A stretch of DNA of 64,000 bases from Pyxidicoccus trucidator (lineage in GTDB: Bacteria > Myxococcota > Myxococcia > Myxococcales > Myxococcaceae). Below are positions 27,448 to 52,435 of the stretch, piece by piece (position 1 is the first letter of the stretch; each line of letters starts with the position of its first letter). Made by a program: the position numbers and the translations under genes. The stretch is from positions 186,001-250,000 of the forward strand of contig NZ_JAAIXZ010000008.1 in assembly GCF_010894435.1 (NCBI RefSeq). The letters are read 5' to 3'. The notes under the pieces were generated by a model. The model saw only the letters and a list, made by a program, of their open reading frames with translations, searched no databases and was not told where the DNA came from.

Positions 27448-30400
27448 ATGTACTGCCCTGACTGCCGGCAGGAACGGCTCGGTAACGCCCAGCAATGCGC
27501 GCTTTGTGGCAAGGCGATGCACGCGCGCACGCGCAACGTCGTGGAGGCGGAGCTCGCGCATGTGCACTTCCTCCTGGATGAGCTGAAGCGCTGGGACACC
27601 TCCGAGGTGCCGCGCAACGTCTCCCGGTTCATCTCCGAGAGGTACGAGCGACAGGTCCGCATCCTCCTCTCCGTGCTCACCGAGCTGCCTCCGGTCTCGG
27701 TGGAGCAGGGCGCGACGGTGGTGGCTCCGGCCGCGCTTCCGGTGGAGCAGGTGGCTTCCGGGGTTGCGCCTCCGGTGATGGGCGAGTCCGCGTTGGCGCT
27801 GGGGACGCAGGCGTGGGTTGCGGCGGCTGACTCCGCGCAGGTGATGGCGGTGGGCGCCCCGGTGGCGGCGGTCTCCGCGCAGCAGGTGGACTCGGCCGCC
27901 GTGGAGTCACTGGCGCAGGCCGCTGCGTCCGTTCAGACAGGCTCGGAGGAGGGGACCGAAGCGCTTCCGTCGCAGGTGGCAGCGGTAGCGCAGGCGAAGG
28001 TGGAGGGGAGTGCCGAGGCGCTTGCGTCGAATGGGGTGACGGCCTCGCAGGTGGCAGCGGAAGGTGCCGCCGGAGAACTTCCGGCGCAGGCGACGGATGC
28101 GGTGTCCATGCCGGCGGAGGAGTCCGCCAGGCGCGAGGAGGCAGAGTCCTCGCAGGCCGCGGCTTCCGCCAGCGTTGCTGGGGAGGAAGAGGCTCAAGGC
28201 GCTTCGGAAGAGCCTGCTCGCGAGCGGACGTCCCGCGCTCGGGGCCTGCCTCGCCCTCAGCTCCCGCTGCCCCCGAATCCCGCGGAGGCGTATGCCGAGC
28301 CTCCGCAGCCGCGCAACCTCACCGCGCGCCTCGTCGAGGAGACCTCCACCTGGAACCGGGTGTGGAGGCCCTTCCTCTACGAGAGCATCATGTGGTTCAT
28401 CGGTGCCTTCCTCATCCTCTCGGGCACCCTCTACTTCGTCTTCGAGAGCTGGGCGGGGATGTCCTCCAGCGTCCGCTCGCTCACCGTGTTCGGGATGACG
28501 GCGGGCTACTCGGCCGGCTTCTCCATCTGGGGCGCGTTCCTCGCCCGCCGTGAGGCGCTGCGCAACCCTGGCAACATCCTCGGGCTCATCGGCTCGGCCG
28601 TGGCTCCGCTCGCGGGCATCGCGCTGGGGCCGCTCGACCTGGGCGAGGCGCTTCAAATCGGCGGTGTGGGCCCCGTGCTGCTCATCCCCATGTTGCTCGG
28701 GTGGGCCGCCGTGTCCGCCGTCCTCGTCCGCAAGCCGGCGGAGGCCCTCGACGCTGCTTCCCGCCCGCTCGTGCAGGCCGCGCTCGCCGCCAGCACGTTG
28801 ATGATGGGGCTGGCGCCGCTCGCCGTGAAGCTCGGCACCTTCGCGCCCTGGCTCAACGTCCTGCCGTGTGCGCTCTTCTTCGTCCTCTCTTCCCGGCCCA
28901 CGGCCGAGCCGCGCAAGGGCCCCGCGCTGTTCTTCGCCGTGACTGCGCCGCTCTACCTCTTCGTCCTCTACGCGGTGCGCCTGCACGTGGGGCTGGCGGA
29001 GGTGGACCTGGAGCCCGTGCCGGGCACCTACGCCCCGTTCGTCGCCTTCCTGTTCGCCACCGCCCTTCGCTTCCGCACGCTGGAGCCGGAGCGCGCCGCC
29101 GACCCGCTCGTGCTTGGCGTGGTGCCGCTCCAGGTGGCCTGCCTCATCGCCGCCGCGACGGCCCCCGCGCCTGGCTTCTTCGCCACCGCCGCCGTCCTCA
29201 CCTGGACGCTGGTGTCGCTGGCGCGCGGCGGGCTCGCCCGGCTGCCCTGGGTGTACGGCGCCTATGCGAGCACGTACTTCGCCTACGCCTCCAGCGCGCA
29301 GCTCATCCCCGGTCCGGTGCGGCGCTTCATCGACGCGCTCAAGGCCGCGCTCGGCTACCCCGTCACGGGCGACCTGCCCCTTCAGTACGGTGCCCTGTCC
29401 GCGCTGCCCTTCGTCGCCGCTGGCGCGGTGCTCGCGGTGTCGCGGCTGTGGCGTGGTGAGCGCACGGGCAACGCGCGGGACCTCGCCTTCGCGGAGGTGC
29501 TGCTGCGTGCCACCGCCGTGGCCAGCCCGCTGTTCGCGCTCTACGGCACGTCCGGCCCCGACTCGCGCCCGGCGTTCTGGAGCGCGCTGGGGCTGTCGCT
29601 GGTGTGCCTCGTCGTGGGCCTGTTGGTGGAGCGCTTCTACCTGGCCGCCGTGGGCGCCGGGGTGGCGATGTTCCTGCCCTTCCAGGCGCTCGCCATGCAG
29701 GGGGCTCCGGCCGCGTCCGTCACGTCCGGAGTCATGGCGCTGGTGCTCGCGGGCGTGTGCCTGCTGTGCACTTCGCGCACGCGGTGGCTGCTCGGCTCCG
29801 TCGTGGCGGTGATGGCTTCCGCCGGCTTCCTCATGGGCCTCTTCGGGGGCGGCACCCTGGCGTTGACGGGCGTGGTGCTGTGCGGCGCCGCCGCGCTCAT
29901 TACCGCCTGGGCGCTCCAGAGTCCGGCGGCCATGGCGGTCGCCGCCTTCCTCGCCGCGGCGGCCCTGCCGAAGTTCGCCAGCCAGGTGTCTTCGGACGCG
30001 GTGGCGCCCGCGCTCGCCCTCGTCGCGCTCGGCCTCGCGCTGCTGGGGGAGCGCGGGAGGATGGCGCGGCTGCTCGGCGTGCCCGCCGTCTTCTACGCCG
30101 TGCTCGCGCTGCCCTGGGGCATGGTGTCCCAGGTGCCGGGGCTGGGTCTGGTGGTGCTCACCGCCGCGGCCGCCGTCGCCGTGACGTCGCGCACGTTCCG
30201 TCTCGTGCGGCCGCTGGCGGTCGTCATCGCCGCCCTCGCGCTGCTGCCGGACGTGCGCGGCGTGTACATGCCGTGGGGCGGGTGGATGTCGCCGGGCCTG
30301 TCCATGGTGCTGTTCGTCCTCGGCTCCCTGGGCACTTCGCTCACCGCCGTGCGCTCGGGGCGGAGCGCGAGCACCACCACCGCCGCGATGGTGGCGCTCC

Positions 30401-33210
30401 TCTTCCCCCTGCTGACTGTCACGGTGGCGGGCGCCCAGACGGGCCGGTTCGTGCCGCTGATGCTGGGTGCCGCGCTCGCGGCCCTGCTCACCGCGCGCGC
30501 CCTGCCCGCGGGATTCAGCGTCGCCATCGCCTCGCTGTACGCGGCCGTCGCTCTCGCCAGTGTGGGCCCCGTGGCGCTGCTGGGGCTGGCCGCGGTGCTG
30601 GGCGTCCTGGCCGTGCTGGAGGAAGTGTCCGCCGTGCTCCGCGTCGGCGCGGGAGGCGAGCGCTTCGCCCTGGTCGCCACCCTGGCCTCCGTCATCACCC
30701 TGGGCATCGCCGTGGTGGACTGGGACGATGCGGGCCTGCCGTTGCTCGTGGCGGCCACGCTGACGCTGCCGCTGCTGTGGACGCGCGCCAGCCGGCTGCC
30801 CTTCTTCGCCGCCCTCATGGTGCCCTACACGCTGGTGGGCATCGCCGTGGTGGGCGGGACGCGGCCTGCCTGGGTGCAGGTGCTGCCCCTCTTCGTGCTG
30901 GTCGTGGTGCGCGCCGTGGAGCACTTCCCGGCCGTGGCCTCGCTGCTGCTGCGCTCGCAGGAGGAGAAGCCCCGGCGGGACTTGTCCCTGTGGATGCAGG
31001 GCGCGCTCGCGGTGGTGGCGCCGCTGCTGTTGCTGTCGTCCTGGGTGGAGCCCGGGCCCCTGTACTTCCTCACGGCCTCGCTGGCGCTGATGCCAGGGCC
31101 GCGTCCCTTCCTGCGCGTCTGCGGCGCCGCGCTGTTCCTCCTCTTCGTGCCGGAGGCGCGGCCCGTCGTCACCGGCCTGCTGCTGGCGCTCGCCCTGGTC
31201 GAGCACCACCGGCCCCAGGCGCTGTGGGCCTTCTTCCGGAGCCCGCCGGACGCGACGCTGCGCCCCGCCGCTGTCTTCACGGCGCTCGCCTTCGCCGCGC
31301 TGCCCGTGCTGGGACTTCCCACGCCGTCGAGCCTGGCCGGGCTGGCGGGCGTGTTGGCCGCCGCCGCGTTCCTGCTGTCGCGACGCTGGCTGCTCACCCC
31401 CGCCGTGTGGGCCCTGGCGCTGGCGCCCGTGGGGCAGGTGGACGGTGCCAGCTTCCTGGAGTGGCGGCCCGAGGCGGGGCTGCCCATCATCGCCGTGGCG
31501 CTCGGCGCCGCGCTGCTGTCCGCCGCGTGCCAGTCCGGCCGCGTGCAGCGGGCGCTCGCCGCCGCGTCCGCCCGCGTGCTGCCGGGACTCGAAGGCACCT
31601 GGAGCGAGCCGCTGTGGGTGGGCGGCGCGGGGGCCCTGGGCCTGTTGCTCGTGGGGCGACTGCTGGACTCGGGGCCGGGCTCGCTGACGCTGGTGGTGGC
31701 GCTGGGCGCGGGGCTGACGGCGTGCGTGCTGATGGTGGCGCGCAGCCGGTGGATGGCCAATGTGGCCACGGTGTTGCTCGGCATGGCGCTCATCGCGGCG
31801 GTGCCCCCGGCGTGGGCGCCCGCGGTGGTCAGCGGGGCGGGGCTGCTGCTGTGCCTGCTGGGCATGTGGCTGGACGGGCGCGGCGTGCACGTGGGCGCGG
31901 CGCTGCACCATGGCGGCTGGGTGCTGGCGCTGCTGTCGCTGTCGGGCCTTCGCGACCTGGAGCACACGGCGACGCCGCTGAGCATCCTCTTCGCGTTGGG
32001 CGCCGCATGGGCCGTGGTGCTGCGGCGCCGCGAGCGTGAGGTGGTGGGCTGGCTGGCCTCGCTCGCCGCCGTGCACGGCTGGCTCATGCACCTGGGCGCG
32101 GTGTACTCGTCCGGCCGGGGCTCGGAGTTCATCCTCCCGCACTTCGGCGCTGCCAGCGCGCTGCTCGCCACCCTGGCGCTGTTCGTGGCGGGGAAGAAGT
32201 GGCGCAGGGGCGTGGGGCATGGCTTCGCCGTCGTCGCCCTCGTCGAGGTGCTGCTGGGCCTGTCGCTGCTGGGGGCCCACGGGGACGCGCTGCGCGAGGC
32301 GCTCGTCGCCTCCGTCTCGCTGGGCGTGCTGCTGTTCGCGCTGGTGCGCCGCGCCGCCGTGGAGGCGGACGAGACCTCCGCCTTCCTCGCGCAAGGGGTG
32401 CTCGCACTGGGCTATCTGTCGGTGCGCATGCTGGGCATGGGCGTGAGCCCGGGCCCCGCCGACAGCCTCGCCGCGCTGGTGGGCGGTGCCGTCTTCACCG
32501 GCCTCTACTTCTTCGTCCAGCGCGAGGGCTCGGGGCTGGAGGCGTTCCGTCGGCCCGCGCTGGTGGGCGCGTTCCTCTTCCCGCTGGCCGGTCTGCTGTC
32601 CGCGCCGTGGGGCGAGCCGCTCCAGGTGGCGGCCCTGCTGGTGGGCCACGCCGCGCACTTCGCCGCCCTGGGTACGCACCCGACACGCCGGGGGATGGCC
32701 TCGATGGCGTCGGTGGTGGCCTTCAACGCGGCGCTGCTCCTGGTGTGGCAGGGCACCGGCGCTGGGGAGCCGCAGTACTACGTCATCCCCGCGGGCCTCT
32801 CGCTGCTCGCGCTGCTGCGGGTGTTCCGCGCCTCCATCGAGGAGGACACGTATGCGCGGCTGCGAGCGATTGCTGTCACCGGCATCTACGTGGCCGGCGC
32901 GTGGAAGCCGCTCATGTTCAGCGACGGCGGCTCCATGCTCCTGTGCGTGGTGCTCTGCGTGGTGGGCGTGGGCTTCGGCATCGCCCTGCGCATCCGCTCG
33001 TACGTGTACCTGGGCACCGCGTTCCTGGTGACGTGCATCGCCGCCAACCTCGTGCGCTTCGGCATGCGAGACCACCGCATCGCCGCCGCGTCGCTGTTCA
33101 TGCTGGGCCTGCTCGTCATCGGCTCCATGGTGATGCTCAGCGCCTACCGCGCCGCCCTGCTCCAGAGGTACGCGCGGGTGCGAGAGCTGCTCTCCACCTG
33201 GGAGGGGTGA
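27448..33210 (+). CDS. Giant polytopic membrane protein with N-terminal zinc ribbon
   Basis: A 1920-residue protein. Residues 1-25 hold two CxxC pairs (CPDC, CALC) as a zinc ribbon, followed by a helical segment (VVEAELAHVHFLLDELKRW). Residues ~85-280 are a low-complexity Ala/Val/Glu/Gln-rich linker with loosely repeated AQA and ASQVAAEG units. From ~310 to the end there is an almost unbroken run of hydrophobic helices, several dozen by eye, with short loops. The ATG follows GAGGGGGGAAGG. No transporter, polymerase or glycosyltransferase motif stands out, and I do not recognise a function. Long polytopic proteins with a zinc ribbon recall DUF2157/DUF2339-like families, which is only a guess. 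Confidence 0.85.
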   Translation: MYCPDCRQERLGNAQQCALCGKAMHARTRNVVEAELAHVHFLLDELKRWDTSEVPRNVSRFISERYERQVRILLSVLTELPPVSVEQGATVVAPAALPVEQVASGVAPPVMGESALALGTQAWVAAADSAQVMAVGAPVAAVSAQQVDSAAVESLAQAAASVQTGSEEGTEALPSQVAAVAQAKVEGSAEALASNGVTASQVAAEGAAGELPAQATDAVSMPAEESARREEAESSQAAASASVAGEEEAQGASEEPARERTSRARGLPRPQLPLPPNPAEAYAEPPQPRNLTARLVEETSTWNRVWRPFLYESIMWFIGAFLILSGTLYFVFESWAGMSSSVRSLTVFGMTAGYSAGFSIWGAFLARREALRNPGNILGLIGSAVAPLAGIALGPLDLGEALQIGGVGPVLLIPMLLGWAAVSAVLVRKPAEALDAASRPLVQAALAASTLMMGLAPLAVKLGTFAPWLNVLPCALFFVLSSRPTAEPRKGPALFFAVTAPLYLFVLYAVRLHVGLAEVDLEPVPGTYAPFVAFLFATALRFRTLEPERAADPLVLGVVPLQVACLIAAATAPAPGFFATAAVLTWTLVSLARGGLARLPWVYGAYASTYFAYASSAQLIPGPVRRFIDALKAALGYPVTGDLPLQYGALSALPFVAAGAVLAVSRLWRGERTGNARDLAFAEVLLRATAVASPLFALYGTSGPDSRPAFWSALGLSLVCLVVGLLVERFYLAAVGAGVAMFLPFQALAMQGAPAASVTSGVMALVLAGVCLLCTSRTRWLLGSVVAVMASAGFLMGLFGGGTLALTGVVLCGAAALITAWALQSPAAMAVAAFLAAAALPKFASQVSSDAVAPALALVALGLALLGERGRMARLLGVPAVFYAVLALPWGMVSQVPGLGLVVLTAAAAVAVTSRTFRLVRPLAVVIAALALLPDVRGVYMPWGGWMSPGLSMVLFVLGSLGTSLTAVRSGRSASTTTAAMVALLFPLLTVTVAGAQTGRFVPLMLGAALAALLTARALPAGFSVAIASLYAAVALASVGPVALLGLAAVLGVLAVLEEVSAVLRVGAGGERFALVATLASVITLGIAVVDWDDAGLPLLVAATLTLPLLWTRASRLPFFAALMVPYTLVGIAVVGGTRPAWVQVLPLFVLVVVRAVEHFPAVASLLLRSQEEKPRRDLSLWMQGALAVVAPLLLLSSWVEPGPLYFLTASLALMPGPRPFLRVCGAALFLLFVPEARPVVTGLLLALALVEHHRPQALWAFFRSPPDATLRPAAVFTALAFAALPVLGLPTPSSLAGLAGVLAAAAFLLSRRWLLTPAVWALALAPVGQVDGASFLEWRPEAGLPIIAVALGAALLSAACQSGRVQRALAAASARVLPGLEGTWSEPLWVGGAGALGLLLVGRLLDSGPGSLTLVVALGAGLTACVLMVARSRWMANVATVLLGMALIAAVPPAWAPAVVSGAGLLLCLLGMWLDGRGVHVGAALHHGGWVLALLSLSGLRDLEHTATPLSILFALGAAWAVVLRRREREVVGWLASLAAVHGWLMHLGAVYSSGRGSEFILPHFGAASALLATLALFVAGKKWRRGVGHGFAVVALVEVLLGLSLLGAHGDALREALVASVSLGVLLFALVRRAAVEADETSAFLAQGVLALGYLSVRMLGMGVSPGPADSLAALVGGAVFTGLYFFVQREGSGLEAFRRPALVGAFLFPLAGLLSAPWGEPLQVAALLVGHAAHFAALGTHPTRRGMASMASVVAFNAALLLVWQGTGAGEPQYYVIPAGLSLLALLRVFRASIEEDTYARLRAIAVTGIYVAGAWKPLMFSDGGSMLLCVVLCVVGVGFGIALRIRSYVYLGTAFLVTCIAANLVRFGMRDHRIAAASLFMLGLLVIGSMVMLSAYRAALLQRYARVRELLSTWEG

Positions 33211-33251: not shown

Positions 33252-34103
33252 ATGCAGCCCCAACCATCCCCGGGAGGACCGCTGTTGCTTCGCCTGCTCG
33301 CCGCCATTCCCCTGTGTGCTCTCGTCGGCTGTGCCACCGTGAAGACCCGCGCCTCGGCGTCCGAGCCCCCGGTGGTGATGGCGACAGCACCCGTGGAGAA
33401 CAGCGTGGCGCTTGCCGACCCTCACTCAGAGGCAGGGCAGGCAGGCACGGTGGAGGGGGCCGCGCAGGACAAGATGCGGCTGGTGACGGCGGGCGTGATT
33501 GCCGCCGCGCTGCAGGCCGCGGCCATGGTGACGGGGCCCGCCAGCACCTCGGGCCGCTTCTGGGATGAGCTGCTGTCTCCGACGGAGCTGAGCCGCTCCA
33601 TCGTCCAGCGCTCCATCCAGCTCGTCGGCGCGCGCACCCTCGGCAAGAGCGTGCCCAATGACTGCTCGGGCTTCGTGCGGCTCGCGTACCTCGCGGGCGG
33701 CATCGACCTGGTGAACCACGGCTTCCTCGCGGGGGAGAACGCCGTCTCCGCCATCTTCCGCCGCGCCCTGGACGTGGGCACCGTCCACCACCAGGCTCCG
33801 CGCCCCGGCGACCTCGTCTTCTTCCGCGAGACGTATGACCGCAACCGCGACGGCCGGCGCAACGACGGGATGACCCACATCGGCGTCGTGGAGGGCGTGG
33901 ACGGCGAAGGCACCGTCACCTTCATCCACCGGGGCGGCAAGGGCGTGGCGCGCGGGCGGCTCAACCTGGCGGCCCCCGCGAAGCACCAGCTCGGCCAGGG
34001 CGGGCCGGTGCTGAATGACTACATCCGCCCCGCCGCCAAGGGCTCCCGGGCGTACCTCGCGGGAGAGCTGTTCGCCGCGTTCGCTTCGCCTGAGGGCCTG
34101 TAA
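33252..34103 (+). CDS. NlpC/P60- or CHAP-like cell-wall peptidase lipoprotein
   Basis: A 283-residue exported protein with lipobox LVGC (Cys27). The catalytic Cys138 lies in PNDCSGFVRLAY, His209 in MTHIGVVEG and a third polar site in FIHRGGK (His226), the papain-like arrangement of NlpC/P60 or CHAP amidases that cleave peptidoglycan stems. The segment DLVFFRETYDRNRDGRRNDG resembles a Ca-binding-like loop. The stop codon overlaps a perfect palindrome. Confidence 0.82.
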   Translation: MQPQPSPGGPLLLRLLAAIPLCALVGCATVKTRASASEPPVVMATAPVENSVALADPHSEAGQAGTVEGAAQDKMRLVTAGVIAAALQAAAMVTGPASTSGRFWDELLSPTELSRSIVQRSIQLVGARTLGKSVPNDCSGFVRLAYLAGGIDLVNHGFLAGENAVSAIFRRALDVGTVHHQAPRPGDLVFFRETYDRNRDGRRNDGMTHIGVVEGVDGEGTVTFIHRGGKGVARGRLNLAAPAKHQLGQGGPVLNDYIRPAAKGSRAYLAGELFAAFASPEGL

Positions 34104-34171: not shown

Positions 34172-34609
34172 ATGCGAATCGCCCTGCTGCTCGTTGGGGG
34201 TCTGCTTCTTGCCCCGGGCTGTGTCCTCCACACGCGGCCCCTGCCGCGCCCGGCGCCGCGCCCCCAGCCTTCTCCTCCTCCGCCCCCACGTCCGTCGGCC
34301 ATGTCCTACAACGAGGCCGTGGACCTGGGCTTCGGCCAGTGCCGCTCGCGCGGCTACGAGTGCCGGCTGAAGGAGGCCCACCGCAAAGGCAATGACGTGT
34401 GGAAGGTGAAGTTCCACGCCTTCGCTGACGGCGCGAAGGGCCACCTCCATCTGGAGTACGACGCCTGGTCTCGCAACCTCCTCAAGGTGGACGAGAAGGT
34501 GAAGGCCCGCCGCGACGACAGGGACGATGACGACGACTGGGATGACGACGACCATCGCCACGGCCACGGTAGGGGCAAGAAGAAGGGCCACGCGAGGCAC
34601 GACGACTGA
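34172..34609 (+). CDS. Putative lipoprotein with Asp/His-rich tail
   Basis: A 145-residue protein: signal MRIALLLVGGLLLAPGC with Cys17 as lipidation site, a Pro-rich linker (residues ~22-42), a small domain (SYNEAVDLGFGQCRSRGYEC) and a tail with a DDDDDWDDDDHRHGHGRG segment. The acidic/His tail should bind divalent metal ions. Function unknown. A hairpin terminator follows. Confidence 0.7.
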   Translation: MRIALLLVGGLLLAPGCVLHTRPLPRPAPRPQPSPPPPPRPSAMSYNEAVDLGFGQCRSRGYECRLKEAHRKGNDVWKVKFHAFADGAKGHLHLEYDAWSRNLLKVDEKVKARRDDRDDDDDWDDDDHRHGHGRGKKKGHARHDD

Positions 34610-34669: not shown

Positions 34670-34747
34670 GGCCGGAGGCCGGGCGGTGCCTTTCTTCCCG
34701 ACGGGTGTCCGCGGATTCGCGCCCGGGTGTCTCCAGGGTGCCGCGTC

Positions 34748-35263
34748 ATGACTCCCACTCCCCAGGTCGACATCTCCACGCTGTACCGGCGCCACGTGGC
34801 GCTGGTGCGCGGCTGTGCGCTGCGCATCCTGGGTGAGCCCGCCGCCGCCGAGGACGTCGCGCAGGAGGTGTTCATCCGCTTCCTGCAGCATCGGGACCGC
34901 AGCGGCAGCGAGCAGGACACCGCCGCCTTCCTCTACCGCACCAGCACCAACCTCGCCCTCAACCGGCTGCGCGACGCTCGCCGCCGCAAGGGCCTGCATG
35001 ACGCGCACCTGCCGGACGGGGAGCCGCACAGCCCCCACTCCCCGGAGGACGGGCTGGCGCTGCGCAAGGTGCTGGCGGAGGCGGACCCGGAGCAGGCGCA
35101 GATTGCCGCCTGCTACTTCATCCACGGCATGGAGCACGAGGAGATTGCCGGGATGCTCGGCGTCCCGCGCCGCACCGTGGGCCGCCGGCTGGAGAAGTTC
35201 CGCGCCCACGCCGAGCACATGCTGCAAGGCGTACGGAGAAAGGAAGCAGGCCATGGTGGCTGA
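34748..35263 (+). CDS. ECF-like sigma-70 family RNA polymerase sigma factor
   Basis: A 171-residue sigma factor with only regions 2 and 4. Region 2 contains LGEPAAAEDVAQEVFIRFLQ and FLYRTSTNLALNRLRDARRR; region 4 (residues ~110-155) contains GMEHEEIAGMLGVPRRTVGRRL, the -35 recognition helix. The start may be the ATG at 34748 or a GTG at 34727. The end overlaps the start of the anti-sigma gene by 11 bases, so synthesis is coupled. It probably directs transcription of its own operon, including the caspase-like gene. Confidence 0.88.
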   Translation: MTPTPQVDISTLYRRHVALVRGCALRILGEPAAAEDVAQEVFIRFLQHRDRSGSEQDTAAFLYRTSTNLALNRLRDARRRKGLHDAHLPDGEPHSPHSPEDGLALRKVLAEADPEQAQIAACYFIHGMEHEEIAGMLGVPRRTVGRRLEKFRAHAEHMLQGVRRKEAGHGG

Positions 35264-35972
35264 GCCGTTCCCCAGGTCCAAGGCGTCCGCTGACTGCCTG
35301 TCCGGATGGTGTGTCTCGCAAGTCGTGCTCGGACTGCTGTCCCCCGAGGAGCGCGCGCCGGCCGAGGCGCACCTCACCTCCTGCGCGTCTTGCCGGCAGC
35401 GGGTGGACGTGGAGCATGCCCAGGCTCGCGCGGCGGCCTTCGAGAAGGTGCCGGAGGCGCTGCTCGCGGCAGCGGCGGCCGTGCCCCCGCGTCCGGAGCG
35501 GCAGGGGTGGCTTCCGTGGAGGTGGGTGCCCGCCTTCGCCGTCCCCGCGCTGGCGGTGGGCGTGTTCCTCGCGGTGCGGCCTCCCTCCGGGGTGGAGCGT
35601 CCCGGCGTGCAATTGAAGGGCAGCGCGTCACTGGACGTGGCGGTTGCGCGAGAGGGGACGCTCGTGGTCAACGGCATCCCCGCGGAAGAGGTTGCGGGGC
35701 TGAGGGCGGGAGACCGGCTGCGCCTGCGCGTGCAGGGGGCGGAGTCGTCCGCGTGGCTCATCCTCCAGGGAGACGAGGAAGGACAATGGACCCCGTACTT
35801 CGAGGGCCTCGCGCCCCAGGGCGGCTGGCTGCCCATGGGCATCACCGTCACGCCGGACGGGCGCACGCGGATGCGGCTGCTGACGTGCGCGGCGAAGCCT
35901 CCGCCTGGAGTGCCGGTGGAGGACGTGTGCCGCGTGCGCGTCTACGACTGGGGCATGGCTGGGACGCCGTGA
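35253..35972 (+). CDS. Zinc-binding anti-sigma factor with C-terminal DUF4384-like domain
   Basis: A 239-residue single-pass membrane protein. The cytoplasmic N-terminus has the zinc anti-sigma motif H-x3-C-x2-C in AEAHLTSCASCRQRV, which should bind the partner sigma factor. A membrane helix follows (WVPAFAVPALAVGVFLAV, near residue 97). The periplasmic part (residues ~120-239) is beta-rich with VQGAESSAWLILQGDEEGQW, resembling the DUF4384-type sensor domain often linked to caspase-like proteins. Its stop overlaps the GTG of the next gene (GTGA). Confidence 0.8.
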   Translation: MVAEPFPRSKASADCLSGWCVSQVVLGLLSPEERAPAEAHLTSCASCRQRVDVEHAQARAAAFEKVPEALLAAAAAVPPRPERQGWLPWRWVPAFAVPALAVGVFLAVRPPSGVERPGVQLKGSASLDVAVAREGTLVVNGIPAEEVAGLRAGDRLRLRVQGAESSAWLILQGDEEGQWTPYFEGLAPQGGWLPMGITVTPDGRTRMRLLTCAAKPPPGVPVEDVCRVRVYDWGMAGTP

Positions 35973-37534
35973 GCCGCGTGGCGGCGCTGTGGCTGGGCGT
36001 GCTGCTGGCCGTGGTGCCCATGGCCGTGCAGGCGGGAGAGGCCCGCTACGCGCTGCTGGTGGGCGCGCACAAGGGCAACGCGGACGAGCCCCGGCTCCAC
36101 TTCGCCGGACGCGATGCGGAGCGCCTGCGCGAGGTGCTCGTCACCCTGGGCGACTTCCCGCAGGAGAACGTCACCGTGCTCGCGGACCCGAGCGCGGACC
36201 GGATGCGCACCGCGCTGGCGCGGATGAACGCGCGCATCCGCGAGGAGGTGGCGCATGACCGCTCCAGCGTGCTGCTCGTCTTCTACTCGGGCCATGCGGA
36301 CGCGGAGTCGCTGCACCTGGGCGGCACGCTGCTGCCGTGGGAGGAGCTGCGCAACCTCACCTCCGGCTCGGCGGCGGCGGCGCGTCTGCTGGTGGTGGAT
36401 GCGTGTCGTTCCGGGCAGGCCACGCGCGTGAAGGGCACGAAGCTGGCGGCGCCCTTCGCGCTGCCTCCGGACGTGGAATCGCACGGACTGCCGGAGGGCT
36501 TCGCGATTCTCTCCTCATCGGCGGCAGGGGAGAGCGCTCAGGAGTCGGACTCGCTGCAGGGTTCCTTCTTCACGCACCACCTGGTGGCCGCGCTGCGCGG
36601 CGTGGCGGATACCAGCTCGGATGGGCTCGTCAGCCTGGCGGAGGCGTACCAGTACGCCGCGGACCGCACGGTGGCGAGCACCGTGGCCACGGTGGGCGGC
36701 GTGCAGCACCCCACGTACCTCTACGAGTTGAAGGGGCGCTCGGAGCTGGTGCTCACGCGGCCGGGGCGCAGCCAGGGACTTGCGGCGGTGCGGCTGGAGG
36801 GGGCGGGGCAGTACTTCTTCCGGCAGGGCGGGCGTGATGGCCCGGTGGTGCTGGAGGCGGGCATCTCTCGCGAGGCTCGCACCGCGCGGTTGGTGCCTGG
36901 GAGTTACTTCGTCCAGCACCGCCTGCCGGACCGGCTGCGCGAGGCGCGCGTGGTGGCGGAGGAGGGCCGCCCGCTGGAGCTGGCCGAGGCGGCGTGGAGC
37001 GTGGTGGAGCTGGACCAGCTCGTGCGCAAGGGCGGCGGTGGACGGCCCACCTGGGCACTGAGCGGGTGGGGCGGTGGGACGGCGAGCCTCCTGGACGGCT
37101 ATCCGTTCTCTCCGTCTGGCGCGGTGCAGGCGTCGCTGGACACGGCGGCGCTCACGCTGGATGCGCAAGTGGAGCTGGCCCTGGCGGGCTTCGTCCAGGC
37201 TGGCTTCGAGCGGCGGCTCACCTCCGGGGCGCTGCGGGTGGGGGCTCGCAAGGTGTTCGACATGGGGCGGTTCTCCCTGTCGGGAGGCGTGCGGGTGGGG
37301 GCGTCGTACGTGGACCAGCGCTTCTTTGGGCGGACGGCGCCGCGCCACTGGCAGGTGGTGCCGCAGTTGGACACGGTGCTGCGCGCGGACCTGCACCTGC
37401 CCCGGGGCCTCTTCGTGGGCGCGGAGGCGGGGCTGCGTGCGTCGCGGGTGCGCGTGCTGTCGTCGCTGGGACGCGAGGAGGTGCGCACGCCGGTGACGCC
37501 GATGCTCGCGGCAGGGACGGGGCTTCGCTGGTGA
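35969..37534 (+). CDS. Exported caspase-family protein with C-terminal beta-barrel-like domain
   Basis: A 521-residue protein beginning at GTG 35969, coupled to the anti-sigma gene. Residues ~1-22 are a signal peptide ending MAVQAG. Residues ~25-255 are a caspase (peptidase C14) fold with the catalytic His109 in VFYSGHAD and Cys146 in LLVVDACRSG, so it should be active. Residues ~260-370 form a beta-rich linker. The last ~150 residues alternate polar and hydrophobic residues, with strands such as GGVRVGASYV and GLFVGAEAGLRA, and end in Trp, the pattern of an outer-membrane barrel. The peptidase would then face the periplasm. Target unknown. Confidence 0.82.
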   Translation: MSRVAALWLGVLLAVVPMAVQAGEARYALLVGAHKGNADEPRLHFAGRDAERLREVLVTLGDFPQENVTVLADPSADRMRTALARMNARIREEVAHDRSSVLLVFYSGHADAESLHLGGTLLPWEELRNLTSGSAAAARLLVVDACRSGQATRVKGTKLAAPFALPPDVESHGLPEGFAILSSSAAGESAQESDSLQGSFFTHHLVAALRGVADTSSDGLVSLAEAYQYAADRTVASTVATVGGVQHPTYLYELKGRSELVLTRPGRSQGLAAVRLEGAGQYFFRQGGRDGPVVLEAGISREARTARLVPGSYFVQHRLPDRLREARVVAEEGRPLELAEAAWSVVELDQLVRKGGGGRPTWALSGWGGGTASLLDGYPFSPSGAVQASLDTAALTLDAQVELALAGFVQAGFERRLTSGALRVGARKVFDMGRFSLSGGVRVGASYVDQRFFGRTAPRHWQVVPQLDTVLRADLHLPRGLFVGAEAGLRASRVRVLSSLGREEVRTPVTPMLAAGTGLRW

Positions 37535-37631: not shown

Positions 37632-38285
37632 ATGAAGCTGAAGCGGTTCGTGGAGTCGCTGGCCCTGTCGCTTGCGTTGGGGAGCACCGCCGGGTGCGGG
37701 GATGCGCTGATGGATGGCTCGTATGCCGGCGAGCCCCGCTACGTGGTGCAGGGCGAGGTGAAGTCGTTGGCGCCCTCCTCGGAGAAGGGGACGACGCGCG
37801 TCACCCTGGCCTGGGACAACTGGGCGCGGGAGGGGGACATCACCACCTACCAGAGCGTGGAGCTGACCAGCATGAATCCCCCGTTCGACTACCAGTTGCG
37901 CGTCGTCGACAACCCTCCCGACGAAGTGCTCAACGACTTCAATCCGGGCCTCATCGGGTTCGCCTACCTCATCGTCTACGAGGACCTGGATGGGAATGGC
38001 GTGCCCAACGGCGAGGAGGCCAATCGCTGGAGCAACCTGCGCGGCATGGCGCGCAACCACGTGGTCCTCTTCGCGCCCGAGCTCACCGGGGCGCTGAAGG
38101 CGTCACTTCGCGAGTGGGGCCGCATCGTCAACGTGGACGACTTGAAGCCGGGCTTCAACCTGGCGCGCGGCGTCTGCGTGGGGACGGACTCCAGCTTCGA
38201 TGACCTGGAAATCGTCCCCAACGAGCCCGTGGCCGTGGCGGATCCGCAGGACGACAGCGTGAGGTCCTGCATCAACTACCACTGA
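37632..38285 (+). CDS. Putative lipoprotein
   Basis: A 217-residue protein with a lipoprotein signal (LALSLALGSTAGC, Cys22). The mature part contains LIVYEDLDGNGVPNGEEAN, a loop rich in Asp/Asn/Gly that may bind calcium, and two Cys near the C-terminus (ARGVCVGTDS, VRSCINYH). It follows the caspase gene by 97 bases in the same direction and may belong to the same transcript. No family recognised. Confidence 0.7.
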   Translation: MKLKRFVESLALSLALGSTAGCGDALMDGSYAGEPRYVVQGEVKSLAPSSEKGTTRVTLAWDNWAREGDITTYQSVELTSMNPPFDYQLRVVDNPPDEVLNDFNPGLIGFAYLIVYEDLDGNGVPNGEEANRWSNLRGMARNHVVLFAPELTGALKASLREWGRIVNVDDLKPGFNLARGVCVGTDSSFDDLEIVPNEPVAVADPQDDSVRSCINYH

Positions 38286-48139: not shown

Positions 48140-48718
48140 GTGTTGATGGCCAGCCTGTTGCTGGTCGCGTGCGGCGCCCCGCGCGCCAACAGGCACGGCG
48201 GGCCACGCCACTATGCGCAGTCGATGGACTCGGCGACGAGCGCCTGCCTGCGCACCCCCGCCTGCTACACGGCTACGGGCGAGGACGCCATCCTCCCGTG
48301 GCTGTCACGCGCGGCGAGCGCGGCGCGCACCACCGCCGCGGTGATGCGCCTGCTGGAGGAGGCGGACCTCAAGCGCGCCGAAGCCATCCTGATGGAGTGC
48401 GCCTCGGAAGCGAACGGCCAGGTCAATGAACAGCGCTACGGGAAGGGGAAATGAGCCACTCCCGAGCAATGCCAGGAGCGGGTGTCGACCCCTCGGGACA
48501 GCAGGAGACGCGTGCGGAGGAAATGGGCCGGGTGAAACACGCGGTGGCGCTGGAGTGCGCGCGCCAGAATTAGCAATACTCCCCAATGGAATGGATACCA
48601 TCGCAAGCATCCCTTCTACGGGAAGAACCAAGGCCAGGTGTACTACGAGTCATTGGGAGGCAGGACGCCTGCCGTGGTGGTGCCCCATGCTGGAATCAAA
48701 CCACCATGGCAGCCTTGA
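48140..48718 (+). pseudogene. Decayed Sit-type polymorphic toxin gene
   Basis: The first frame begins with a short lipoprotein-like signal (MASLLLVAC) and continues SACLRTPACYTATGEDAILP to a stop at 48454. Homologous-looking text then continues in other frames: DPSGQQETRAEEMGRVKHAV with ALECARQN to a stop near 48571, and lastly NGYHRKHPFYGKNQGQVYYE ending PPWQP at 48718. The last piece matches my memory of the C-terminus of SitA-type nuclease toxins. Thus at least two frameshifts and an internal deletion have inactivated it. The final stop lies 13 bases inside the next gene, as toxin and immunity genes often overlap. Confidence 0.6.
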
Positions 48719-49665
48719 ATCCAAAGCTTCGCGTCCACGAGACCTACCCTGCATGTCCGCCAGAAATCCCCGAGCCAAGACGATGTCTGGCCATTCGGGA
48801 CAGCCTGAACATCACCTTCTACATGCGGCGTCCCCACAGTGAGGTGAGGCATGACATCACGCATGCCTTGGAGGTCTACTGCCAGGCTGTAGGCCGTCAT
48901 AGACTGTCAACCTATGGGGGCTACTCGGAACACTGGCAGGCTCTCGACGACGAGGGCTGGGCGGCGGTCCGGGAGGACTTGCTCGATCCGGAAGGCGGCG
49001 GCAGCGTCGTCCTGCGTGAGTGGGCGACGGTGACGCCAGGGCACGCGTTCACCTATTTCGGCCGACTCTACGACTTCCCTGGATACAGGACCTGGCCCGA
49101 CGAGTCTTCCACCGTCTCCTTCTGGCTGCCGACCGAATACCTGGAGGAACGTGGTCCCGACTGGGTGCGGGAGCTGGCGCTGGAACTTGCCTCCCGGCTT
49201 CCCTTCAACTCCGGCCATGCGGGCCTGTTCCTACAGTCGTACTTCGACCCGATGACGCACGCTGAGGTCCGCGCAGCCTGCTTCGCCTACCCAGGCATGG
49301 ACATAGTGAGGGAGAACGAGCTGGCCAATCACATCGGCACCCGGGTGAAGGGCGCACACTGGCTGACCTTCCTCGGCCAGCCGGTGCTCGGAGAGCTGGG
49401 CGGCGCGACAGGCCTCCGCTCCCGGCTGCACTCGCCCAACACCGCCGTGCAGGGCCTGGGACAAGACCGCGTCGTGGTGACACTGGGCAAGCAGCCCGAA
49501 TTCGGAGACGTGGAACCCGAGCGCACCCTGGCCCCGTACCGCGAGCTGGCCCGCGTGTGGAGCCCTGGCTCTACCGCGAGCGCGCGCCGTGGACCGGCTT
49601 CACCGAGGATGACATGCGCCGCTGGGAGCGCCGCCTCCTCGATTAGCGGCGCGCTGGGGTGTTGA
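48706..49665 (+). CDS. DUF3396-type immunity protein, frameshifted near the C-terminus
   Basis: The frame begins MAALNPKLRVHETYPACPPE and encodes a type VI-immunity/DUF3396-like protein: ITFYMRRPHSEV near residue 40, then FSTEY-like SFWLPTEYLEERGPDWVREL and FNSGHAGLFLQSYFD, and TRVKGAHWLTFLGQPVLGEL. Up to about 49556 it looks intact. After RELARVW the frame changes to low-quality sequence; the +1 frame instead reads EPWLYRERAPWTGFTEDDMR to a stop at 49646. One missing C in GTG(C)TGGAGCCC would explain this. The protein may be non-functional. It overlaps the decayed toxin gene and was probably its antidote. Confidence 0.75.
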   Translation: MAALNPKLRVHETYPACPPEIPEPRRCLAIRDSLNITFYMRRPHSEVRHDITHALEVYCQAVGRHRLSTYGGYSEHWQALDDEGWAAVREDLLDPEGGGSVVLREWATVTPGHAFTYFGRLYDFPGYRTWPDESSTVSFWLPTEYLEERGPDWVRELALELASRLPFNSGHAGLFLQSYFDPMTHAEVRAACFAYPGMDIVRENELANHIGTRVKGAHWLTFLGQPVLGELGGATGLRSRLHSPNTAVQGLGQDRVVVTLGKQPEFGDVEPERTLAPYRELARVWSPGSTASARRGPASPRMTCAAGSAASSISGALGC

Positions 49666-49718: not shown

Positions 49719-52334
49719 TCAGTCGCGCTTGTTCGAGAGCTTCTTGATGGCGGCGCCGGCCTCGTTGTGGCCGCAGCTCAAGTTCAGGACTCCCGTCCTG
49801 GGAAGCTGCGTGGCACGGGTGAGGGCGGGGAGGGCATCCGGGTTGCCCAGGCCCGCCAGCCGCACTGCCGCCTGCGCGCGGATGTCGCAGTCCTCCGACT
49901 CCAGCGCCCGGCTGTACGCGTCCACCAGGTCCACGCTGGCCGTGGCCTTGACGTACTCCAGGTAGCGCAGCGCGCCCCACTGTCGCAGCGAGTACTCCTC
50001 TTCGGCGAGGTCCTCGAAGTGCCCAAGCACGGACTCCTTGGGGAACTTGTCGAGCAGGGCCTCCATCGTGGCGCCACCGCCCCGGCCGTAGTCCTCCGCG
50101 AGCCCGTCGAGGACTGGTGCTTCCACCTGCGCGCGCCCCTCGTCATCCAGCTTGGAGAGCAGGAAGTACTCGCTCTTGTGGGTACCTTTCGCGTGGTACA
50201 CCGCCGCGCGCGCCCGCCGCCAGGAAGGCTCCTTCTGCGCTTCCTCCGGCACCGCTTCCAGCTGCTCCTGGGCGTCGTCCTTCTTTCCCTCTTCCAGCAG
50301 GGCGTAGGCGCGCACGACCGGGTCGTTCAGGTGCACCAGCCACGCCGCGCCGGCGCCCAGCAGCGCCAGGGCGCCCACGAGCACCACCAGCTGCGCGCGC
50401 CGATTCGTGCGCAGCACCGTCAGCGCCGAGCGCAGCCACTCCGTCAGGCGCCGCGAGGCTCCGCTCAGTCGGGCCATTCCTGGCAGGGCGGCCACGCGTG
50501 CTCCGAGCGGGGAGAATGCTCCGCTCACCCGGCCCAGCAACGACGCCAGCTTCGCACCCATGCCGCTCGCGGGGACGAAGCGGTCACCGAAAGGTGGGCC
50601 CTCCGCCGCGCGCTGGCAGCGGTAGAGCTGGAGCTGCTCCTCGCGGCCGGGCAGGGTGATGGTGCCGCACGGCTCGGCGGTGGCTTCGGCGCGGTTGCGC
50701 GCGAGGTTCACCGCCTCGGTGAACGTCACTTCGCCCGCGGCGGCCACGTGCTCCACCGACGCCACGACCTCCATGGGCTCGCCCAGCACGGTGTCGCTCG
50801 TGAGGAGCACCTCGCCCGCGTGCAGGCACACCCGCACGTGGAACTGCTCCTCCGGCGGCACCGTCTGGTTGTGGCGCCACAGCCGGTCCTGCATGGCCAT
50901 GCCGCACAGCACGCCCGCCGTGGGAGAGCGGAACACCGCCAGCAGCGCGTCGCCGCGCTTCTGCACCAGCCGGCCCTCGTGCTCCTTCACCAGGGGCGTC
51001 AGCAGCCGGTCGTGTGTCTCCAGCATCCGCGCGTTCTCTTCGTGCGTCTGCCGGCTGGTGCGCTCGGCGAAGCCCTGGATGTCGGTGAGCATCACCGTCA
51101 GGTTCTGCGGCTTCACCAACGAAGCGCCGCCCGTCACCGTCGCCACGCTGCCCGACGGCTTCGTCCCGAAGGCCGCCGTCCCCGTGCGCATCGCCACGGG
51201 TGCCATGGGGCCAGAGCCCACGGGACCGGTGCCGTACGCACCGGCGCCCGCGCCGAATGCAGCCGTGCCGCTGCTCTGTGGCGGCGCCGCGCCTCCCGCG
51301 AAGACGGCCGTGCCGCTCGGGCCCGCCGACACCACGGCGGACTCACCCGTGCCGAAGACGGAGGTGCCGGAGGACGGCCCGCCGCCCTGGGGCACATAGA
51401 CGGGCGTGCCCAGGCCGGGCGTGAAGGCGGAGAGCGCGGAGTGCGCCGCCGCCAGCGCGTCCGCCAGCTCGTGCGCGCTCTGCGGTCGCTTCAGCGGGTC
51501 CTTCTCCAGCAGGCGCATCACCAGCGACAGCAGGCCGATGAAGCGCGACAGCGACGGGGCCGCCCTGTCGAGAGGCAGCGGCGCATGGGAGGCGTGCTGC
51601 GCGAGGAAGTTGCGCGGCGCGGGCCCGTCGAAGGGCAGCCGCCCGGCCAGCACGCGGTACATCAGCACGCCGAAGGAGTAGAGGTCGCTGCGCGTGTCCA
51701 CCTTCGCGCCCACGGCCTGCTCCGGGGACAGGTACTCCGGCGTGCCCAGCACCACGCCCACCTGGCTGACGGCGCTGCCAGCCTCCGGCTCCACCAGCCG
51801 GGCGATGCCGAAGTCCAGGAGCCGGGCCTGCTCCCCGCGCGCTCCCGGGGAGATGAAGACGTTCTCCGGCTTCAAGTCCCGGTGGATGATGCCCTTGTCG
51901 TGGATGGCGGCCAGCCCCTCCGCCAGCTGATGGAGCAGCGGCAGCGCGCGGCCCGGGTGCATGGGGCCGGGGATGAGCACGTCGTAGAGGCTCTGACCCT
52001 CCACGAACTCCATGACGAGGCAGGCGTGGTCTCCGGACTCGCCGAAGTCGACGATGTGCACCACCGCCGGGTGCTCCACGGCGGACAGGAGGCGGGCCTC
52101 CCGCTTGAAGCGCTCGGCCATGCCGGCCTGGGCGTGCAGGTCCTGGTGGAGGACCTTGATGGCCACCTTGCGCCCCAGGGACACCTGCTCACCCAGGTAC
52201 ACCTCTCCCATCCCACCCGAGCCCAGGGGGCGGAGCACCCGGAAGCGACCTTCGAGGACGAGGGAGTCGGGAGCCAACACGTCTGACGCATATAGTCCGA
52301 CTTCCGTCCGGGGTGCATGTCGTTCCTCCGGCAC
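49719..52334 (-). CDS. Ser/Thr protein kinase fused to a cyclase-like domain, membrane helix and HEAT-like tail
   Basis: An 871-residue protein starting at GTG 52334. Kinase (residues ~28-300): GSGGMGEVYLGE, VAIKVLH, the catalytic HRDLKPENVF and DFGIARLV, all intact. A Gly/Ala/Ser-rich linker (~310-400) follows. Residues ~405-560 resemble a class III nucleotide cyclase (VMLTDIQGFAERTS with one metal Asp, KRGDALLAVF with the other), but the Asn and Arg that stabilise the transition state are replaced (GEPMEVVAS). A membrane helix (LVVLVGALALLGAGAAWLV) is near 650, then a periplasmic part with HEAT-like repeats (IRAQAAVRLAGLGNPDALPA). It diverges from the giant TPR gene and likely signals from the envelope to the cytoplasm. 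Confidence 0.88.
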   Translation of the reverse strand: MPEERHAPRTEVGLYASDVLAPDSLVLEGRFRVLRPLGSGGMGEVYLGEQVSLGRKVAIKVLHQDLHAQAGMAERFKREARLLSAVEHPAVVHIVDFGESGDHACLVMEFVEGQSLYDVLIPGPMHPGRALPLLHQLAEGLAAIHDKGIIHRDLKPENVFISPGARGEQARLLDFGIARLVEPEAGSAVSQVGVVLGTPEYLSPEQAVGAKVDTRSDLYSFGVLMYRVLAGRLPFDGPAPRNFLAQHASHAPLPLDRAAPSLSRFIGLLSLVMRLLEKDPLKRPQSAHELADALAAAHSALSAFTPGLGTPVYVPQGGGPSSGTSVFGTGESAVVSAGPSGTAVFAGGAAPPQSSGTAAFGAGAGAYGTGPVGSGPMAPVAMRTGTAAFGTKPSGSVATVTGGASLVKPQNLTVMLTDIQGFAERTSRQTHEENARMLETHDRLLTPLVKEHEGRLVQKRGDALLAVFRSPTAGVLCGMAMQDRLWRHNQTVPPEEQFHVRVCLHAGEVLLTSDTVLGEPMEVVASVEHVAAAGEVTFTEAVNLARNRAEATAEPCGTITLPGREEQLQLYRCQRAAEGPPFGDRFVPASGMGAKLASLLGRVSGAFSPLGARVAALPGMARLSGASRRLTEWLRSALTVLRTNRRAQLVVLVGALALLGAGAAWLVHLNDPVVRAYALLEEGKKDDAQEQLEAVPEEAQKEPSWRRARAAVYHAKGTHKSEYFLLSKLDDEGRAQVEAPVLDGLAEDYGRGGGATMEALLDKFPKESVLGHFEDLAEEEYSLRQWGALRYLEYVKATASVDLVDAYSRALESEDCDIRAQAAVRLAGLGNPDALPALTRATQLPRTGVLNLSCGHNEAGAAIKKLSNKRD

Positions 52335-52435
52335 GTCGTGCGCCAGTCATCACGCCTCGTTGCCTGCTCCACAAGCGGGGGGATTGTCAGAAATTTCGGG
52401 GGCTTGGGTGGCGTGGTACCCTCCCCGCTTCTGCG

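Follow-up and report, generated by a model that had tools for sequence, protein, structure and literature searches.

In regulated intramembrane proteolysis of the anti-sigma factor RseA, the shared PDZ serine protease DegS acts first and RseP second, while in the FecI-FecR-FecA system cell-surface signalling runs through a sigma factor, an anti-sigma factor and an outer-membrane barrel. Here, we describe a locus of Pyxidicoccus trucidator at positions 34748-37534 of a 64,000-nucleotide stretch (hereafter the window: RefSeq assembly GCF_010894435.1, contig NZ_JAAIXZ010000008.1, positions 186,001 to 250,000), in which three overlapping genes encode an extracytoplasmic function (ECF) sigma factor, a zinc anti-sigma (ZAS) factor and an exported caspase with a predicted outer-membrane barrel. 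The caspase and the anti-sigma factor share a short motif, and we propose, with a probability of roughly 0.45, that the caspase acts as the dedicated site-1 protease of its own anti-sigma factor in a self-contained signalling module. In that case, the release of an ECF sigma factor would start with a periplasmic cut close to the membrane, as for RseA; unlike DegS, however, the first cutter would be a caspase, i.e. a clan CD cysteine protease, encoded together with its anti-sigma factor.

The association of the genes has been described before. Four of the five metacaspases of M. xanthus were found in sigma-70 operons, and such operons were also reported for Anaeromyxobacter, Haliangium, Sorangium, Ralstonia and Fibrobacter (Asplund-Samuelsson et al. 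2012, PMC3501461). Therefore, the gene linkage was already known, and the view of the earlier note on this DNA that the system is undescribed cannot be kept. For these operons, the available part of that paper mentions no anti-sigma factor, shared motif or mechanism, and it reports OmpA domains in 14 metacaspase operons but no barrel joined to a caspase. The novelty is thus the evidence of a cut-site motif common to protease and anti-sigma factor, not the operon.

Other systems share some of these components. Neighbourhoods of EACC2 caspases also combine a caspase with an ECF sigma factor, and activation by an autopeptidase was proposed for them; they have other domain partners, the term anti-sigma is absent from the paper, and the accessible text describes no exported, barrel-borne caspase (PMC8195603). 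Proteases including caspase-like CHAT proteins were proposed to control ECF54 sigma factors with CHAT-domain neighbours, but, unlike here, these sigma factors lack an anti-sigma factor (PMC8999054). FoxI-FoxR-FoxA likewise comprises a sigma factor, an anti-sigma factor and an outer-membrane barrel with a periplasmic N-terminal domain, and its site-1 protease was called still unknown in 2024 (PMC11637429). In contrast to FecA and FoxA, the barrel predicted here has eight strands and no plug, TonB-dependent-receptor or STN domain, and its periplasmic part is a caspase. We found no description of a caspase cutting an anti-sigma factor or acting as a site-1 protease in the literature searched, the scope of which did not extend to supplements or the ECF reclassification paper.

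Organization of the operon

The three genes lie on the forward strand with overlapping ends where the earlier note had placed them, and its account of their products was borne out by Pfam matches, an intact His109 and Cys146 in the caspase, and the barrel in the AlphaFold2 (AF2) model. The sigma factor gene (34748..35263; 171 aa) matches Sigma70_r2 (E 2.2e-16) and Sigma70_r4_2 (E 7.3e-6), and scores above the cut-off of TIGR02937. Its end overlaps by 11 bases with the anti-sigma gene (35253..35972; 239 aa; zf-HC2 E 8.6e-6), the product of which has a zinc-type N-terminus, one hydrophobic segment, a disordered stalk and an all-beta, DUF4384-like C-terminus. An overlap of four bases, GTGA, leads into the caspase gene (35969..37534; GTG start, 521 aa), with a Peptidase_C14 match over residues 26-225 (E 1.3e-14). 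Judged by the sigma-2 and sigma-4 domains and the adjoining Hx3Cx2C protein with one transmembrane segment, the first two products probably form an ECF-ZAS pair.

A motif shared by the caspase linker and the anti-sigma stalk

The caspase carries the sequence TRVKG (residues 152-156; 36422..36436), a proposed self-processing site, in the loop after the catalytic cysteine. K155-G156 is invariant in 46 aligned homologues and opens a loop that the AF2 model gives with low confidence (residues 155-171); the lysine lies 10 residues past the strand preceding Cys146, and the processing sites of caspases lie about 14 past it. The same pair recurs in the anti-sigma stalk as K122-G123 (35616..35621), where we propose cleavage close to the outer face of the inner membrane. 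In an alignment of 48 of the 145 anti-sigma proteins, K122 and G123 are the only invariant columns, and they stand after a low-confidence stretch, with the folded domain's first strand following three residues later. Among nine window orthologues, 8% of stalk residues 109-121 are invariant, compared with 53% of the folded domain and 100% of the K-G pair. Since the DUF4384 model begins 24 residues past KG in locus L005, the motif lies outside that model.

Across the 145 loci read, some of which are places fetched twice, linker KG was present in every caspase, and KG was found within 60 residues of the membrane segment in 139 of the anti-sigma stalks (L157 being counted via a farther KG, although its site is R-G). 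Among the six misses, three genes run off a contig end (L044, L085, L138), one stalk has R-G (L122) and two are real breaks, to which we return below. Divergent modules with other caspase types mostly have R-G in both linker and stalk, and K-G in both for L259, L260 and L281; here the script misreads the stalks of L257, L281, L301 and L306, that of L281 was taken as REKG by eye, and L256/L290 as well as L259/L277 are one place each. Over 220 modules, in which the R clades are under-represented, the P1 residues of linker and stalk were K/K in 207, R/R in five, K/R in five and R/K in three. These are what remained of 229 modules after nine with an unreadable motif were dropped, including the real breaks of L114 and L127 and the R-S stalks of L445 and L449.

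Such a match between linker and stalk would also suit an inhibitory pseudosubstrate, i.e. the stalk could sit as bait in the active site of the caspase and keep the protease off until an envelope signal separates the two, with control running from anti-sigma factor to caspase. We consider this very improbable: a flexible stalk with a basic-Gly pair has the look of a substrate, and the zinc domain and the sigma factor would probably be left without a role in the switch.

Occurrence of the stalk motif with and without a caspase

Evidence that the stalk motif and the caspase belong together is given by DUF4384 proteins found phylum-wide in 117 genomes, of which 35 places were read (leaving out L323). 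With a sigma factor upstream and a caspase downstream, [K/R]G was present in 18/18, at 25 to 33 residues before the DUF4384 domain. Where a sigma factor was present without a caspase within roughly 4 to 5 kb to either side, the motif was found in one of six, all from Anaeromyxobacteraceae; L348 combines the motif with a caspase on the opposite strand at a distance of 3.3 kb. Among DUF4384 proteins not preceded by a sigma factor, none of ten had the motif at this place, and four of the ten had a caspase-like match in the stretch. This absence argues against the idea that [K/R]G has a structural role or is cut by another protease, with the caspase inherited alongside for some unconnected function, an idea that we regard as doubtful.

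Within Anaeromyxobacteraceae, a family name that we inferred (24 genomes, with 17 matches in 11 of them), the stalk motif was present in 7/7 anti-sigma proteins with a downstream caspase and in 1/10 without one (Fisher p 4e-4, uncorrected for ancestry). The absence of a caspase refers to wide flanks in six of the ten and to about 1.5 kb on each side in the other four. As the ten caspase-less rows represent four lineages on the tree, this p overstates the association. Four orthologous caspase-less anti-sigma proteins have lost the segment, and others have AAQG or GATG there, which again speaks against a purely structural role or a different protease.

Several observations weigh against cleavage of the stalk by the caspase. 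Three of the ten caspase-less Anaeromyxobacteraceae proteins (L378-L380), all among the four with the shorter flanks, have no sigma factor in the fetched 3.5 kb and may not be anti-sigma factors; leaving them out, the motif is present in one of seven. Outside this family, the motif persists in each of the seven anti-sigma genes read that lack a caspase, i.e. L210 (TRIKG), L211 (TVKG) and L212 (RVRG) in this genome and L419, L423, L424 and L432 in others, with no caspase in the 5.9 to 9.0 kb around them. Therefore, the motif may be structural or serve another protease, a reading also favoured by its position directly ahead of the strand that opens the folded domain. On the tree, L423 is paired with the caspase-bearing L426, so its caspase loss may be recent, and this genome has orphan caspases (L160, L162), but both are excuses for the motif-keeping proteins rather than evidence. 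These two orphans, without a nearby sigma or anti-sigma gene, keep the linker KG. The stalk motif is broken in two clade-A loci (KSG in L114, MG in L127), several divergent modules have R-S stalks, and L256 pairs a linker R with a stalk K. P1 differs between linker and stalk in 8/220 modules.

Once ancestry is taken into account, the tests have little power. On a tree of 82 anti-sigma proteins, 8 of 17 caspase-less rows keep the motif (L369 from Anaeromyxobacteraceae and the seven from elsewhere), and it is absent in the other nine and in two caspase-bearing rows with R-S (L445, L449). This tree leaves out L397 and L442 (caspase on the opposite strand, only 3 to 4 kb away), L436, L438 and L441 (stalk unreadable), L389 (contig end), and the duplicates L391 and L402. 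Five independent pairs gave 1.8 changes of caspase and motif the same way, 0.0 opposite and 3.1 with no difference. Arg at P3 is likewise correlated between linker and stalk when ancestry is ignored (62 and 20 concordant, 14 and 4 discordant; Fisher p 1e-8, for 100 K-linker modules at 75% caspase identity, with the misread stalks L123 and L326 included). However, with L123 corrected and L326 dropped, six independent pairs on the caspase tree gave 2.4 the same way, 0.5 opposite and 3.0 with no difference, and P1 (K or R) offers one independent pair only. The independent-pair tests thus fall short of significance, there being too few independent changes.

Proposed mechanism

What is directly seen here is the anatomy, the gene order, two matching motifs, their conservation and their co-loss with the caspase in one family. 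We propose the following course. The caspase would be exported and, in the window copy, is predicted to hang in the outer membrane by its barrel with the protease facing the periplasm. Activation would come from a signal, perhaps calcium, perceived by the barrel or within the periplasm, with a self-cut in the linker after Lys155. Next, the caspase would cleave the stalk of the anti-sigma factor behind Lys122, where the [R-x-]K-G motif recurs, and free the DUF4384-like domain. A site-2 protease would clear the remaining stub, and the sigma factor would transcribe its targets, probably including this operon. An obvious difficulty is the distance that a protease anchored in the outer membrane would have to bridge to a site close to the inner one; a similar question of reach was raised for FoxA (PMC11637429).

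The earlier note had seen the protease as the output of the pathway. Because the motif is shared, and is lost in the caspase-less relatives of one family, we suggest that the protease acts upstream, on the anti-sigma factor. If it were the output, another protease would free the sigma factor, which would raise a periplasmic caspase, tethered to the outer membrane, that breaks down envelope proteins, is lethal to the cell or targets prey. As the last of three overlapping genes, the caspase would indeed be expressed with the sigma factor, and a role in developmental autolysis was suggested in 2012 (PMC3501461). A gene for an exported NlpC/P60- or CHAP-like protein, a possible wall hydrolase, also lies upstream of the sigma gene (33252-34103) in the window and in 5/8 orthologous regions; it is the sole hint of the programmed lysis that had been envisaged. 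We consider an output role unlikely, as it leaves unexplained both the repetition of the linker motif in the stalk and the motif loss with the caspase in one family, and the number of matches per genome in the genus (see below) is high for killer proteases.

With the caspase as site-1 protease, a wider scheme may be drawn, which we put forward tentatively and at slightly worse than even odds. Each periplasmic caspase across Myxococcota would be paired with its own anti-sigma factor through the same motif in both and would relay an outer-membrane or periplasmic signal to transcription, with several such relays per cell and with exchanged anchors (barrel, membrane hairpin or none). Most discussion of bacterial caspase homologues treats them as proteases of cell death or immunity. 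If true, our proposal would give a concrete job to a large family with 3 to 14 such caspases in each genome of the genus searched, extend anti-sigma proteolysis to a new class of enzyme and assign a non-lethal role to a caspase in a multicellular bacterium.

Copies in the genome and distribution

Searched with the window protein at E<=10, the genome (12.67 Mb, 136 contigs) yields 11 caspase-like matches. Based on wide flanks, seven of these adjoin a sigma and an anti-sigma gene, i.e. six in the same order and one in divergent orientation (L163); L161 has an anti-sigma gene only, and L160, L162 and L165 have neither. A twelfth caspase locus, L213, was found via its anti-sigma gene and brings the count to 8/12. 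Since 0.25 of the 11 would be expected by chance from the 58 Sigma70_r2 places in 12.67 Mb, chance neighbours can be ruled out.

All 27 genomes of the genus that were searched, this one included, have between 3 and 14 matches at E<=1e-10, and near full-length orthologues of the window copy with 86-91% identity occur in six of the other 26. Matches were found in 92/96 genomes of the family and in 100/117 of an order-wide draw. A scan of named genomes gave 460 relatives, and the best 80 of the 460 come chiefly from Myxococcota and 'Deltaproteobacteria' records, among them Pyxidicoccus, Archangium, Sorangium, Polyangium, Minicystis and Nannocystis. The three-gene order is conserved in other genomes: of 159 loci, which include some places counted twice, 139 have a sigma and an anti-sigma gene upstream of the caspase, six an anti-sigma gene only, one a sigma gene only and 13 neither; seven of the 20 incomplete loci have under 600 bases of DNA upstream. 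Conversely, an anti-sigma profile search of 12 chosen genomes returned 71 matches, and a caspase lay within the fetched stretch in 64 of the 70 examined (one match, G162:C16, was left out). The sigma/anti-sigma/caspase trio is therefore a real and many-times duplicated module.

Caspase and anti-sigma domains

The caspase domain spans residues 24-265 (36038..36763), with His109 at 36293-36295 and Cys146 at 36404-36406. Together with the S1 candidates Asp49 and Asp144, both are invariant across the 46 aligned homologues, i.e. the rows kept from 60 loci once proteins of other architecture, one with a long start and near copies had been set aside. In VIA-align, the domain matched procaspase-7 (4jr2; Z 22.7, rmsd 2.3 over 199 residues) and Arabidopsis metacaspase 4 (Z 22.6), and Foldseek with the model of the caspase protein returned metacaspases, legumains and caspase-3. 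The p20 fold with a His-Cys dyad agrees with placement in clan CD, family C14B. By position, Asp49 in helix 1 and Asp144, two residues before the cysteine, would correspond to the S1 acid pairs of TbMCA2 and MALT1; those of TbMCA2 were reported as Asp95/Asp211 (PMC4357240), and C14B enzymes are described as cleaving after basic residues (PMC6426788), in line with the lysines of the two proposed cut sites. Assignment to the EACC1-associated caspases (NF047832) was rejected at 71.8 bits against an NCBIfam cut-off of 140.

A loop resembling an EF-hand (D214..D218-G..E225; 36608..36643) is a possible calcium site, with D214, D218 and E225 invariant in the 46 homologues. EF-hand_5 matched weakly in two related caspases, and the Pfam search for EF-hands left the window copy unmatched; calcium as the trigger of the caspase is a guess from the likeness of this loop. 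By a simple rule, a hydrophobic N-terminus with an AxA-like site was recognized in 46/46 homologues, suggesting that the caspase is exported.

In the anti-sigma factor, the zinc motif Hx3Cx2C reads HLTSCASC (residues 40-47; 35370..35393), and HxxxCxxC was found in 134 of the 145 anti-sigma loci. The hydrophobic segment covers approximately residues 90-108. The AF2 model (pLDDT 82.8) consists of a helical N-terminal domain, a low-confidence stretch (pLDDT below 50 at residues 100-120) and an all-beta domain at residues 126-235, most of which exceeds 90. The label 'DUF4384-like' given to this outer domain was confirmed in part: the window protein itself was unmatched by the Pfam model, but 28 of the 48 aligned homologues match it (best E 2.1e-7), and the label therefore holds for the anti-sigma family. 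A fold search with the model gave no match at E <= 0.001, from which nothing firm follows.

The predicted barrel and other anchors

The predicted barrel comprises residues 361-521 (37049..37531). In the AF2 model of the whole caspase protein, built on the 46-row alignment (mean pLDDT 84.5, pTM 0.63), the caspase domain is followed by a beta-sandwich and eight long strands over residues 361-520, with alternating hydropathy (difference >1.4) in six of the eight. Foldseek matched the barrel to OmpA (9fzc; E 1.1e-6, TMt 0.72), OmpX (1qj9; TMt 0.71), NspA (1p4t; TMt 0.68) and Ail; the VIA-align listing is filled by the caspase domain and is uninformative on the barrel, which was modelled within the whole protein. 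On the model and the Foldseek matches, a soluble C-terminal domain was rejected, and an OmpA/OmpX-like fold is supported for the barrel that had been predicted. An even number of long amphipathic strands and an export signal, both predicted, are consistent with an outer-membrane beta-barrel. The C-terminal residue is Trp in the window copy, and in the 46 homologues it is Trp in 14, Phe in five and L, P, R, Q or D in the rest. A FecA-type receptor was also considered and rejected, the window protein having no Plug, TonB-dependent-receptor or STN domain; none of these is among the 10 families matched by any of the 46 homologues.

The combination of caspase and barrel describes the window type but not the module in general, as related module caspases have hydrophobic C-terminal segments or no anchor. 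The sigma/anti-sigma module caspases of L258, L261 and L263 lack a barrel, the L261 type ending in hydrophobic segments resembling an inner-membrane hairpin. Barrel-less related caspases also occur in L163 and L251-L255, where the C-terminus of the L163 type is plain and its gene diverges from the sigma/anti-sigma pair. Since the C-terminal anchor differs among modules, the conserved core consists of the periplasmic caspase and the anti-sigma stalk; the role of the barrel may be that of a sensor or a tether.

A barrel-like protein also occurs on its own. On contig C3 of this genome (L210:1867-3940), a sigma and an anti-sigma gene are accompanied by a third gene for an exported barrel-like protein without a caspase, which resembles the C-termini of the caspase-barrels L161 (E 1.8e-16) and L162 (E 1.8e-8) of the same genome. 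This caspase-less lone-barrel type was also found in L419 and L424.

Flanking DNA

Directly upstream of the sigma gene, a block GTGTCC...GTGTCT (34705..34747, forward strand) is kept in the window and in 8/8 orthologous loci, the comparison being among orthologues only. It is also kept in two loci of another genus in which the DNA farther upstream is divergent, and its core has one match within the window when up to two mismatches are allowed. The block may be the promoter of the operon. On the other side, 97 bases 3' of the caspase gene, a lipoprotein-like gene without a Pfam match (37632..38285, forward strand) is a possible fourth member; it lies downstream of the module in 8/8 orthologous regions, at a distance of about 2.4 kb in L175. 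A small Asp-rich exported protein is encoded upstream of the sigma gene (34172-34609) in 5/8 orthologous regions.

Farther away, the window encodes a 1920-aa hydrophobic membrane-type protein without a Pfam match at E<=1e-5 (27448-33210), a TsiV-type immunity protein, i.e. a relative of type VI secretion immunity proteins (48586-49662; PF11876, E 9e-48), and a 3223-aa protein with TPR-like matches (52313-61984).

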